This document shows positions 480-47,003 of a DNA stretch of 64,000 nt, in pieces. Under the pieces are notes generated by a model. That model did no database searches and was not told the DNA's origin. It saw only the letters and a list, made by a program, of their open reading frames with translations. This stretch comes from Hyphomicrobiales bacterium (lineage in GTDB: Bacteria > Pseudomonadota > Alphaproteobacteria > Rhizobiales > Rhizobiaceae). The first letter of the stretch is position 1; each line of letters starts with the position of its first letter. The DNA lies in assembly GCA_900472175.1 (NCBI GenBank), contig UCHD01000012.1, positions 172,191 through 236,190 on the forward strand, in the 5' to 3' direction. The translations under genes were made by a program, and so were the position numbers.

Positions 480-755
480 TCAGTGGCGATATTGCTGGAT
501 GCGGGTCGTGCGCAGACCAGCAAGACCATGGTCGCTGATGGATGACTGCCAGGACAGGAATTCTTCGACGGTCAGGGTATAGCGGTCACAGGCTTCTTCC
601 AGGCTCAGCAGTCCGCCACGCACGGCGGCGACGACTTCTGCCTTTCTGCGGATCACCCAACGGCGCGTATTGGCCGGCGGCAGATCAGCAATTGTCAAAG
701 GGCTGCCATCGGGTCCGATGACATATTTCACGCGGGGTCGTATCATTTCGGTCAT
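480..755 (-). CDS. sciP: CtrA inhibitor SciP (DUF1153)
   Basis: A 91-residue DUF1153 protein. In Caulobacter, SciP is a small helix-turn-helix protein that binds CtrA and blocks transcription of CtrA-activated genes in G1 cells. The sequence shows the conserved N-terminal strand (VKYVIGPDG), the NTRRWVIRRKAEVVAAV helix and the trihelical region with LSLEEAC and LTVEEFLSW. Full family length. The ATG at 755 is followed by another in-frame ATG three codons later, so the start could be 746. Two CtrA-like boxes lie 54-90 bp upstream, consistent with the CtrA-SciP feedback known in Caulobacter. Function is by family; DNA targets here are not shown. Confidence 0.93.
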   Translation of the reverse strand: MTEMIRPRVKYVIGPDGSPLTIADLPPANTRRWVIRRKAEVVAAVRGGLLSLEEACDRYTLTVEEFLSWQSSISDHGLAGLRTTRIQQYRH

Positions 756-43256: not shown

Positions 43257-44267
43257 TCAGGTCTGGTTGCCGTCGATGCGGGCCGGGTCCGACCGGATCA
43301 GATCGATTTCGTAGATGGTGCGCATCACCGTGAAACGGGCCGTCAGCGTCGTCAAAAGCGCAATGACGATCATGATGGCGGCAATGCCGAGATAGCCGGT
43401 AAAGCCGATGGAAAAACTGCCGAACATGGCGGTCGTCTGGTCGCTCTGCGGGGTGGCGAGCGAGCGCGATTGCCAAAAACCCGCCACGGCAAAACACGCC
43501 GCTGCCAGAAGCCCGCCGGCGCCGGCGCCCTTCAGGCTGATCTTCAAAAAGTGTTTCTGGAATTCGGAAGCGACAAAACCCGCCTCCGCACCGACGAAAT
43601 GCAGCACCTCGACGATGTGGCGGTTGCCGGACAGCGTGCCGCGGGTGGCAAAGATCACGGTCAGCACCATTGCGGAGAACACCAGCACGAGCACGCCGGT
43701 ACCGATCAGCGCCGTCGTATGTGCCATCGCCACCAGCCGGTCGACCCATGTGCGGTGATCGTCGAGATAGGCTTGCGGAATGGTTTCCGTCAGCATGGTG
43801 CGCATGGCGGCGAAATCGGGTGGGTTCTGCTCGTCGATGGTGATGATCACGAGGCGCGGCACCGGCAGGTCGTCGAGATCAAGGCCCGCTCCGAGCCATG
43901 GCTCGAGCAGCCGGGCGGTCGCCGCCTTGTCGACGATCGTGCCATTGGTGGTGCCTTCGAAGGTCAGGGCCAGATCGCGGGCGTCGGCCAGCGCCTTTTC
44001 CATGTCGAGTTTTTCGTCCGGCTTGATCTGGATGGTGATCTCGCGGGAAATCTGACTTTCCCAGCTTTGCGCGGTCGAACGCACCATGCTGACGGCACCG
44101 AGCGTCAGGCAGGCGAGGAAGGCCATGATGGCGATGACCAGCACCAGCGCATTGCCGGAGACGTTTGCCGGTGGCACGATCGGCGCCGTCGGGCGCACGC
44201 GCATGGCCGCCTTGCGCTCCTGCGGCGCGGTCTGGCCGGTGCGGTTGCTGGTGGGCGCTTCACTCAT
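43257..44267 (-). CDS. ftsX: cell-division protein FtsX
   Basis: FtsX (336 residues) is the permease-like half of the FtsEX complex that couples ATP hydrolysis to periplasmic peptidoglycan hydrolases at the divisome. It has a cytoplasmic N-terminus, a first helix (about 40-62), a large extracytoplasmic domain (about 65-175) and three further helices, with the conserved IVEVLHFVGAEAGFVASEFQKHFL segment. Its ATG lies 8 bp inside the ftsE end, so translation is coupled. Confidence 0.93.
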   Translation of the reverse strand: MSEAPTSNRTGQTAPQERKAAMRVRPTAPIVPPANVSGNALVLVIAIMAFLACLTLGAVSMVRSTAQSWESQISREITIQIKPDEKLDMEKALADARDLALTFEGTTNGTIVDKAATARLLEPWLGAGLDLDDLPVPRLVIITIDEQNPPDFAAMRTMLTETIPQAYLDDHRTWVDRLVAMAHTTALIGTGVLVLVFSAMVLTVIFATRGTLSGNRHIVEVLHFVGAEAGFVASEFQKHFLKISLKGAGAGGLLAAACFAVAGFWQSRSLATPQSDQTTAMFGSFSIGFTGYLGIAAIMIVIALLTTLTARFTVMRTIYEIDLIRSDPARIDGNQT

Positions 44268-44919
44268 AGATATCGAGCCGCCCCTGCGAGAGGATCATCC
44301 GGCGCGCCTCGACCTGATCCATCAGTGAAAGGTCATGCGTCGCGATGACGACGGCGGTGCCAAGCCGGTTGAGTTCAAGGAACAGGTTGAGCAGGCGACG
44401 CGCCATCGGCGGGTCGACGTTGCCGGTGGGTTCGTCGGCAAGCAGGATTTCCGGCCGGTCGATCAGCGCGCGGGCAATAGCCGCGCGCTGCTTCTCTCCG
44501 CCCGAAAGCACCGGCGGCAAAACGTTGATGCGTTCGCCAAGTCCGACCCAGCCCAGCAGCTCAAGCACATCGGAGCGGTAGGACGATTCGTCCTTGCCGC
44601 GCACACGCAGGGGCAGGGCGACATTCTCGTAGGTGGTCAGATGATCGAGTAGGCGGAAATCCTGGAAGACGATGCCGACGCGGCGGCGTAGCATCGGGAA
44701 TTCGTCGCGCGGAATGGTCGAGATGTTGCGATCGAACATGCGAATGAGGCCGCGCGTCGGCTGCAGCGACAAGAACAGCAGCCGCAACAGCGTCGTCTTG
44801 CCCGCCCCCGAAGGGCCGGTCAGGAACTGGAACGATTTCTTGGGAATGTCGAAGGTCAGGTCGCGGAGGATTTCCGGGCCCATTCCATAACGCAATCCGA
44901 CATTTTCAAAATGAATCAA
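44260..44919 (-). CDS. ftsE: cell-division ATP-binding protein FtsE
   Basis: FtsE (219 residues) is an ABC ATPase with Walker A GPSGAGKTT (about 35-43), Q-loop FQDFRLLDHLTTYENVALPL, signature LSGGEKQR, Walker B ILLADEPTGNVD and H-loop ATHDL. I chose a TTG start (44919) because the family opens with MIHFENVGLRYG; an ATG at 45006 would add a 29-residue tail unlike the family, and it would leave only 23 bp between the start and the CtrA box. The ribosome-binding site before the TTG is weak, so the start remains uncertain. Confidence 0.9.
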   Translation of the reverse strand: MIHFENVGLRYGMGPEILRDLTFDIPKKSFQFLTGPSGAGKTTLLRLLFLSLQPTRGLIRMFDRNISTIPRDEFPMLRRRVGIVFQDFRLLDHLTTYENVALPLRVRGKDESSYRSDVLELLGWVGLGERINVLPPVLSGGEKQRAAIARALIDRPEILLADEPTGNVDPPMARRLLNLFLELNRLGTAVVIATHDLSLMDQVEARRMILSQGRLDIYE

Positions 44920-45029
44920 CGGGTCAGTGTCCAGCTTCTCTTCGATCCAGCATGCCACGGTTTCGCGGCGGGGTGATGGCTCTTGTTGCAGCATATCGCG
45001 CAGCATTCGCTGTTACAGCGCCAACATGG

Positions 45030-45044
45030 TTAAACAGTGGTTAA
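45030..45044. promoter_or_regulatory. perfect CtrA full site upstream of ftsE
   Basis: TTAAACAGTGGTTAA, that is TTAA-N7-TTAA with all eight consensus bases, symmetric and so readable from either strand. It lies 111 bp upstream of the chosen ftsE start and 154 bp upstream of the divergent gene at 45198. Together with sciP in the window, it suggests CtrA control of ftsEX. Inference from motif. Confidence 0.65.
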
Positions 45045-45197
45045 TTTTACGTGAAAACCGGCCGTTCCGGCGGCGCCGTTTTCGAAGCATTAACCATTTA
45101 GGTTTACGTCTCGGAAAGGTTTGTTTCAATGCCCGATTCTGGCCTGTCGATGGCCCGGGCATTCTGGCGCGGCCAGTATGGCTGCGAAGGGGAGACG

Positions 45198-45866
45198 ATG
45201 AACGCTTTCCATCCCAAGGGTGCCGCCAGCCGCATGGATCTGCTGCCGCCTGAGCGCCGGGCGCGCGCCGCTCAGGCAGGTGCTCCGCCACGCCGGGCCG
45301 AGATCGTCGATGCCGAATTCGAAACCGTCCCGTCGCACAGCCGGCGCAACACCTATCCGGTTTTCAACGACAACCGGGTTCGCGCGGCCGTGCCGCCGGC
45401 GCAGAGCCGCAACACTGGAATCTCAGCTTTCGGCTGGGCGGTGAACCATTTCGAGCGCCTGCTCCAGACGGCGTCTCCAAAGGCGTTTGCCGTTTTGGTC
45501 ACATGCCTGTGTGCTCCAGTCTTTCTGCTGTTTGCCAGCCTTTCCGAATATCAGCCAGCCGTGGCCTCCGTGCCGCCACTGTCGATTAGCGGTGTCACGA
45601 CATCGCTCAACGATGCCAATGGCATGAAGATCTTGTCGGTCTACGGCGCCGTTGAAAATCACTCCGATGCCCCGAAAGCCGTACCGGCGATTTTCGTCGA
45701 TGTGATCGCCAACGGTCACCGGCGAACAGCGACCCGGATCGAGCAAAACCAGGCCGTTCTGGCGCCGGGCGAGAGCCGTCCGTTCTCGACGCGCCTCCTA
45801 CACACAGGTGGAAAACTGCCGGGCGTCGCCGTTTCCTTTGGCCAACCGGGTGATTCGGCGCCCTGA
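45198..45866 (+). CDS. membrane protein of unknown function, divergent from ftsE
   Basis: A 222-residue protein with a basic, proline-rich cytoplasmic N-terminus (1-70), one hydrophobic helix (about 97-118; AFAVLVTCLCAPVFLLFASL) and a C-terminal extracytoplasmic domain (ISGVTTSLNDANGMKILSVYGAVENHSD). The C-terminal half resembles the FxxL-type domain in the zinc-ribbon (MJ0042) proteins found at this place in other rhizobia, but the zinc ribbon itself is absent. The ATG at 45198 has GGGGAG. The function is unknown. Confidence 0.7.
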   Translation: MNAFHPKGAASRMDLLPPERRARAAQAGAPPRRAEIVDAEFETVPSHSRRNTYPVFNDNRVRAAVPPAQSRNTGISAFGWAVNHFERLLQTASPKAFAVLVTCLCAPVFLLFASLSEYQPAVASVPPLSISGVTTSLNDANGMKILSVYGAVENHSDAPKAVPAIFVDVIANGHRRTATRIEQNQAVLAPGESRPFSTRLLHTGGKLPGVAVSFGQPGDSAP

Positions 45867-45934: not shown

Positions 45935-46480
45935 ATGCCTGTCGTTCGTGGAAAGAACATTGATCCGCTTTATACCGCCGACGTGATTTCGGCCCGAAAC
46001 GTTGAAATGGCGGAACAAATCGCCAAGGGGCCGCTCAACGACCTTCTGGTCATTGCCGTCCTCAAGGGCTCGTTCATCTTTGCCGCCGACCTCATCCGCG
46101 CCATGCACACCGTCGGCCTGGCGCCGGAAGTCGAGTTCATCACTCTGTCCAGCTATGGCACAGGCACGGTGTCGCAGGGCGTCAAGATCATCAAGGACAT
46201 TGATAGTGATGTGCATGGCCGCGACGTGCTCCTGATCGATGATATCCTCGAATCGGGCCGCACCCTGCTTTTCGCCAAGGAACTGATGCTGGAACGCGGC
46301 GCAAAGTCCGTGACCATCGCCGTTCTGCTCGACAAGAAGGTCAAACGCCAGACCAGTCTCGAAGCCGATTATGTCGGGTTCGAATGCCCGGATTATTTCG
46401 TCGTCGGTTACGGCATGGACGTGGCCTATGCCTTCCGCGAACTTCCCTTCGTCGGCATCGTCACGGGCGACGCCGAATAA
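45935..46480 (+). CDS. hpt: hypoxanthine phosphoribosyltransferase
   Basis: Hpt (181 residues) converts hypoxanthine and guanine to IMP and GMP with PRPP in purine salvage. Family motifs are VLKGSFIFAADLIRA, LSSYGTGTVSQG and the PRPP loop VLLIDDILESGRTL, with DYFVVGYGMDVAYAFRELP near the end. Normal length. It is followed by a CpdR-like response-regulator gene 160 bp downstream. Confidence 0.94.
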   Translation: MPVVRGKNIDPLYTADVISARNVEMAEQIAKGPLNDLLVIAVLKGSFIFAADLIRAMHTVGLAPEVEFITLSSYGTGTVSQGVKIIKDIDSDVHGRDVLLIDDILESGRTLLFAKELMLERGAKSVTIAVLLDKKVKRQTSLEADYVGFECPDYFVVGYGMDVAYAFRELPFVGIVTGDAE

Positions 46481-46552
46481 CGATCCGGCTGTGGACAGTC
46501 GCTGATCTGGCCTTCGGCGTTTACGGAAAACAAACAAAACTCTGGTGGTGTT

Positions 46553-46579
46553 GACCCCGCAGCTTCTGTGCTGCGGGTC
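46553..46579 (+). terminator. GC-rich hairpin between hpt and the response-regulator gene
   Basis: CCCGCAGC (46556-46563) and GCTGCGGG (46570-46577) form an 8-bp stem with a 6-nt loop, extended by flanking GAC/TC. There is no T-run after it, so it may be a weak hpt terminator, an mRNA-end stabiliser, or a leader element of the next gene. Confidence 0.4.
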
Positions 46580-46640
46580 CGGAATCTTGCGCCATCAACG
46601 GCGGATGGTTTCCGGCAGAGCTGTTGCCAAAACGGAGGCC

Positions 46641-47003
46641 ATGATGGCGAAGATCCTGATTACCGAAGATGAGGACGGCCTGCGCCGCTTCGTTGCCCGC
46701 GCGCTTCAACTTGATGGACATGAGACCGTCGAGGCCGCCGATGGTGCCGAGGGCCTTGCCTGTCTTCAGGGCGATAGATTCGACCTGCTGCTTTCCGATA
46801 TCCGCATGCCCGTGATGGATGGCATCGAGCTTGCCCACCAGGCATCGGCCGCCTTTCCGGCATTGAAGATCCTGTTGATGACCGGCTATGCCGAACAGCG
46901 CGAGCGGGCCGACAACCTGACCGGCAAGGTTATCGATGTGGTCTCCAAGCCGTTTTCGCTGCCGGATATTCGCAAGGCCGTTGCCGTTGCATTGGCGGCT
47001 TGA
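46641..47003 (+). CDS. single-domain response regulator, CpdR-like
   Basis: A 120-residue receiver domain without output: acidic pocket D10-E11-D12, phospho-acceptor D53 (LLSDIRMPVMDGIELA), threonine in LLMTGYAE and lysine in VSKPFSLPDI. CpdR proteins control polar localisation of ClpXP and so CtrA degradation; rhizobia carry two. The sequence fits that group but could be another stand-alone regulator. ACGGAGG precedes two adjacent ATGs, either of which may be used. Confidence 0.85.
   Translation: MMAKILITEDEDGLRRFVARALQLDGHETVEAADGAEGLACLQGDRFDLLLSDIRMPVMDGIELAHQASAAFPALKILLMTGYAEQRERADNLTGKVIDVVSKPFSLPDIRKAVAVALAA

Follow-up and report, generated by a model that had tools for sequence, protein, structure and literature searches.

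The ftsE locus and its upstream gap

The window, by which we mean the whole stretch of DNA analysed here (64 kb), carries ftsE and ftsX on its minus strand. The ftsE gene (44260-44919) matched NCBIfam TIGR02673 with 276.7 bits, over the cut-off of 264.85. The ftsX gene (43257-44267), which overlaps ftsE, matched NCBIfam TIGR00439 with 52.6 bits (E 3.8e-14), below the cut-off of 255, and gave no Pfam match at 0.1. The longest ftsE reading frame starts with the ATG at 45006 and adds 29 poorly conserved residues before the TTG at 44919. Among the 25 FtsE matches from the genus, 12 align only from residue 17-26 of this long frame and 13 from residue 1-6; in five genomes of the family a stop codon directly precedes the aligned FtsE stretch (open frame 220). 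Because of these late alignments and stop codons, translation of ftsE probably starts at TTG 44919 and not at ATG 45006. The annotated ftsE start of S. meliloti Ak57 lies 12 codons further in.

On the plus strand, ftsE is flanked by a fast-evolving divergent gene (45129-45866) with no Pfam or NCBIfam matches. It begins at 45129 or at a later codon; position 45129 could be incorrect as the start, since a relative from the genus (L018) has a stop at the third codon of this frame. Also on the plus strand are hpt, encoding hypoxanthine phosphoribosyltransferase (45935-46480; NCBIfam TIGR01203, over the cut-off), and a gene for a CpdR-like response regulator (46545-47003), whose domain begins at residue 34 and whose top NCBIfam match is CpdR (NF046022) with 107 bits, below the cut-off of 180.

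The gap separating ftsE from the divergent gene contains TTAAACAGTGGTTAA (45030-45044), the sole perfect TTAA-N7-TTAA (8/8 consensus bases) within 64 kb. This agrees with the original prediction, which had placed a perfect CtrA box upstream of ftsEX. On the ftsE strand (minus) the box reads TTAACCACTGTTTAA and begins 125 bp from TTG 44919, versus approximately 24 bp from the start of the long reading frame. Perfect matches were also found in 7 of 100 shuffled windows (mean 0.07 per window), and the genome (5.46 Mb, 50 contigs) contains 47 distinct perfect matches versus 29 for the reversed pattern, so that a single match taken by itself is weak evidence, suggestive of a CtrA site at best. A sigma-70 scan of 44900-45260 returned no promoter matches; a weak -10-like TGTAAC lies at 45017-45012 and is not conserved in the genus alignment.

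A CenR site was also considered for the box and discarded: the Rhodobacter motif TGA-N8-TGA, as given in PMC9275681, is not visible in it when judged by eye.

Conservation of the box upstream of ftsE

We compared the DNA upstream of ftsE across the genus, the family and the class. FtsE was found in 25 of 26 genomes of the genus, 24 of them besides the window's own; the remaining genome, which is 78% complete, was excluded. Among the 25, G023 encodes an FtsE identical to that of the window and is thus very closely related to it. At five of the 25 genus loci ftsE was anchored by a start-codon DNA motif, at the rest by tblastn. In the family sample, FtsE was detected in 150 of 151 genomes, two of which are members of the genus; 96 of the other 148 were examined and 52 left out, and since these 96 are nearly all the top-scoring genomes, the sample is biased to nearer relatives.

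A perfect box no more than 250 bp from the ftsE start was present in all 25 genus genomes, including that of the window, and in 51 of the 96 other family genomes, while 45 of the 96 have no perfect box. In 200 dinucleotide shuffles of these regions, the mean count was 0.085 for the genus (maximum 1) and 0.365 for the other family genomes (maximum 4). The spacing is specific: in the 96 other family genomes, a spacer of seven bases occurred in 51, and any different length between 0 and 20 bases in 0-7 genomes. When all 256 tetramers were ranked in the T-N7-T form on the same 96 genomes, TTAA came first. The distance from the box to the ftsE start codon is 84-127 bp in the genus and 63-177 bp in the others (median 85). 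Chance occurrence, which the shuffled windows and the 29 reversed matches had left conceivable for a single site, is ruled out as the source of the ftsE box by the 51 family genomes set against a shuffle maximum of 4; we give it a vanishingly small probability. The box is thus conserved upstream of ftsE orthologues, one of the two outcomes on which its reading as a CtrA site had been made to depend, the other being CtrA occupancy, and its conservation in close relatives supports this reading well.

The 45 family genomes without a perfect box include eight with TTTA-N7-TTAA and one with TTAA-N6-TTAA (raw counts). A degenerate TTTA-N7-TTAA precedes ftsE in Rhizobium sensu stricto, and Xaviernesmea rhizosphaerae has a six-base spacer (L139-L144, L146, L181; L043 and L151).

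We also inspected named loci, restricted to the best 80 of 586, which overlap with the genus and family genome set. Among these best 80, the box is present in 30. It was found in all loci from the window's group (4/4), Ensifer/Sinorhizobium (2/2), Hoeflea (4/4), Mesorhizobium (8/8), Nitratireductor (3/3) and Hansschlegelia (2/2), in one of two from Bartonella, and in single loci from Paramesorhizobium, Pseudovibrio, Salaquimonas, Bauldia and two unclassified Rhizobiaceae. The box of S. meliloti Ak57, TTAACCCTTGCTTAACCAT, is located at -213 before ftsE. An FtsEX tree of 82 rows, a quick build with long-branch warnings, has 32 boxed rows and requires a minimum of 11 switches between presence and absence of the box, gain and loss not being distinguished. 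Its Rhizobium/Agrobacterium clade had no perfect box in any of 20 rows. In other families of the class, the box preceded ftsE in 1 of 20 genomes; these 20 were taken from 72 matching genomes besides the window's, are mostly top-scoring, and in several of them the alignment begins at a codon other than a start codon. The absence of the perfect box from 45/96 family genomes, 20/20 Rhizobium/Agrobacterium rows and 19/20 other-family genomes implies that it is dispensable.

Direction of the box and the divergent side of the gap

The eight consensus bases are identical on either strand, and the direction of the box comes from its flank. The box extends on the minus strand to TTAACC-N5-TTAACCATG (also written TTAAC-N6-TTAACCATG; 45025-45044), with the minus-strand sequence TTAACCACTGTTTAACCATG, and none of its CCATG columns varies among the 25 genomes of the genus. 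Of the 76 box-bearing genomes, 68 have CCAT behind the box on the ftsE strand and none has ATGG in front of it, which establishes that the box faces ftsE. In the genus alignment, 80% of the columns of the box and 5/5 of CCATG are invariant, compared with 11% from the CCATG tail to the start codon, 23% in the stretch just upstream of the box and 43% in the first FtsE codons. A second upstream element reaches 63%, so the ftsE box is not the sole conserved stretch of the gap; it is one of two conserved islands in an otherwise drifting region.

This second element, TTAACCATTTAGGTTTAC (45090-45107, plus strand), is conserved in the genus, and the TTAACC half-site within it points towards the divergent gene. 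The genome contains the pattern TTAACCATTNNNNTTTAC of this element exactly once, and the core of the element, AWTGGTTAA (ftsE strand), was present in 20 of the 30 boxed and 19 of the 50 unboxed loci among the best 80 of 586. The element probably belongs to the promoter of the divergent gene.

The gap is common to both sides, and hpt lies inside the upstream ftsE DNA (up to 1500 bp) in 74 of the best 80 of 586 named loci. The box might therefore serve the divergent gene and the hpt/cpdR side instead of ftsE. Such a role would fit with the conserved TTAACC of the second element facing that side, and PMC4433202 describes a CtrA site in the promoter region of S. meliloti cpdR1. However, the flank of the box points to ftsE, the box keeps within 63-177 bp of the ftsE start, and the second element suits the divergent side better. 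Moreover, tblastn (E up to 1e-3) recovered a homologue of the divergent gene from 34 of the best 80 of 586 named loci; the gene was unrecognisable in 18 of the 30 boxed ones, although a diverged homologue could escape such a search. We consider a function of the box for the divergent side quite improbable and retain ftsE as its target.

A GANTC is found at 45135-45139, adjoining the putative start of the divergent gene and the second element. Of the 24 genus genomes with the landmark GGCATTG, 21 have a GANTC by the second element, as do 13 of the 28 others with this landmark. As its middle base alternates between A and T while the site stays, it resembles a kept CcrM methylation site. Between box and ftsE, GANTC was found in 29 of the 96 other family genomes and in none of the 25 genus genomes (-130..0).

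In Caulobacter, CpdR helps to destroy CtrA. A more speculative and rather unlikely picture is that the gap between ftsEX and hpt-cpdR forms a two-sided cell-cycle control region, in which the CtrA box would act on ftsEX and the genome-unique TTAACC element beside the kept GANTC on the CpdR-like cluster. Rhizobium and Agrobacterium would then have lost the perfect box and kept the other element, so that FtsEX timing would have been rewired within one family.

CtrA in the same genome and the possible regulation of ftsEX

A ctrA gene (L261; NF045991, 426.6 bits, cut-off 350) is established in this genome, approximately 0.8 kb to the left of the window. Its receiver is identical in 115 of 118 positions to PDB chain 4qpj, named CtrA, which we take to be a Brucella protein. 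Just left of the window (L261, C24:169189-172419), ctrA lies close to a chpT-like gene, presumably chpT by our reading of the sequence, and near sciP.

The sciP gene (DUF1153; 486-734, minus strand; Pfam PF06627, over the cut-off) was predicted originally together with CtrA-like boxes. The gene is present and one 7/8 match (809-823) lies upstream of it, but such near-matches are at chance level: the window contains four matches with at least 7 of 8 bases, compared with a mean of 3.1 expected by chance. The near-box before sciP therefore adds no support.

Perfect boxes elsewhere in the genome precede rcdA (NF051867, over the cut-off), a flagellin gene (NF009329, at the cut-off) and a second flagellin-like gene, presumably also flagellin by our reading of the sequence. 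They are likewise found before rpoD (a partial piece below the curated cut-off), a probable ftsK (a weak match to a partial piece, below the curated cut-off) and an OmpR-type regulator that we take to be rem. Forty of the 47 genome sites are intergenic and seven lie inside an open reading frame (raw counts from a crude ORF caller). The seven include the rcdA and ftsK sites; the short frames that enclose these two (109 and 100 aa) are likely to be spurious. Many of the 47 sites precede genes without an assigned name. CtrA motifs or CtrA binding are reported for rcdA, rpoD, ftsK and flagellin in S. meliloti or B. abortus in PMC3616915, PMC2877005 and PMC4433202, and perfect boxes before known CtrA targets of relatives are thus established in this genome.

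These shared targets bear on the identity of the protein that reads the ftsE box. Invariance that reaches past the eight bases into CCATG could be expected from another regulator reading TTAACC or from a part of the core promoter. The exact seven-base spacing, the agreement with the S. meliloti CtrA consensus TAA-N7-TTAAC used in PMC3616915 and the occurrence of the same box before known CtrA targets in this genome argue against such a site, which we regard as very improbable. CtrA itself is likely to bind 45030-45044 as a site facing ftsE. Occupancy in this organism is what the conserved sequence predicts.

The binding of CtrA to the B. abortus ftsE promoter reportedly goes back to Bellefontaine et al. 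2002. PMC2877005 states it with reference 38 as its source, and for S. meliloti a matrix match predicted a CtrA motif before ftsE (PMC3616915). The original prediction had left undecided whether ftsEX is a known CtrA target; the link is already published for these two relatives, and the present site is a well-supported further example. CtrA sites were scanned across alphaproteobacteria in PMC2877005, the main text of which names ftsE once. In the literature on CtrA and ftsE or ftsEX, no published survey of the ftsE site was found by title or abstract, subscription journals being mostly outside the search. The present analysis extends the published cases by the footprint of the ftsE box across the family, its direction, a probable correction of the start codon and the distribution of lineages without the box.

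The present site has CtrA as regulator, ftsE as target and the wider bacterial group in common with the B. abortus ftsE promoter; binding is reported there, whereas a site and its conservation are described here, and no Brucella locus was identified among the genomes. A CtrA motif upstream of ftsE is likewise shared with S. meliloti, where, in contrast, the distance to the start is longer and the match concerns a single species, as opposed to the family-wide tracing presented here. With the full-motif promoters of Caulobacter crescentus (PMC4287350) the site shares TTAA-N7-TTAA and a possible position in the -35 region; unlike in Caulobacter, the start site is putative, and the box precedes ftsE in 1/20 of the other-family genomes of the class.

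Phosphorylated CtrA, supplied by the CckA-ChpT-CtrA phosphorelay, would bind the box facing ftsE and adjust the transcription of ftsEX. We favour a real effect of the box on ftsEX transcription, with less confidence than occupancy. A little-effect alternative grants binding as well, and overlaps with our preferred reading in this respect, but takes the box as a relic or redundant site while other promoters drive ftsEX. According to CtrA depletion data from S. meliloti, CtrA does not control the Fts complex but represses minCD, and the rcdA and cpdR1 promoters have CtrA sites without a transcriptional effect (PMC4433202); the 45/96 other family genomes without a perfect box would also be consistent with a dispensable site. 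A relic, however, is unlikely to stay nearly invariant in 25 genus genomes when only 11-23% of the adjoining columns are invariant, and we regard binding with little or no effect here as a minority possibility.

If the box does affect ftsEX, mild activation in the predivisional cell is slightly preferred by analogy. In Caulobacter, full motifs with their 5' base near -35 (-39 at ctrA P2) are associated with activation, and a full motif at -14 (ctrA P3) can repress (PMC4287350). With TGTAAC as a -10 element, transcription would start near 45005 and the box would have its 5' base near -39, a geometry that matches CtrA-activated Caulobacter promoters and for this reason favours activation. As the -10-like TGTAAC is not conserved and the start site is putative, the sign of the effect is a guess; like the sign, the timing of the CtrA effect is a proposal. 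In an A. tumefaciens pdhS2 mutant, ftsE was up by 1.63 in a list filtered by log2 change, and its CtrA site was called by a loose criterion of at least seven matching bases (PMC7003649). This rise could mean repression by CtrA, or control without a perfect box.

In the original prediction, CtrA control of FtsEX would tie divisome activation to the cell cycle, a proposal against which the S. meliloti depletion data speak. Since FtsEX acts both in the cutting of the septal wall and in the activation of the divisome, the conserved CtrA site could plausibly link constriction directly to the cell-cycle clock in rhizobia. Natural contrasts for this question are offered by the distribution of the site, between Sinorhizobium and Mesorhizobium, which keep the site, and Rhizobium and Agrobacterium, which are without a perfect box.
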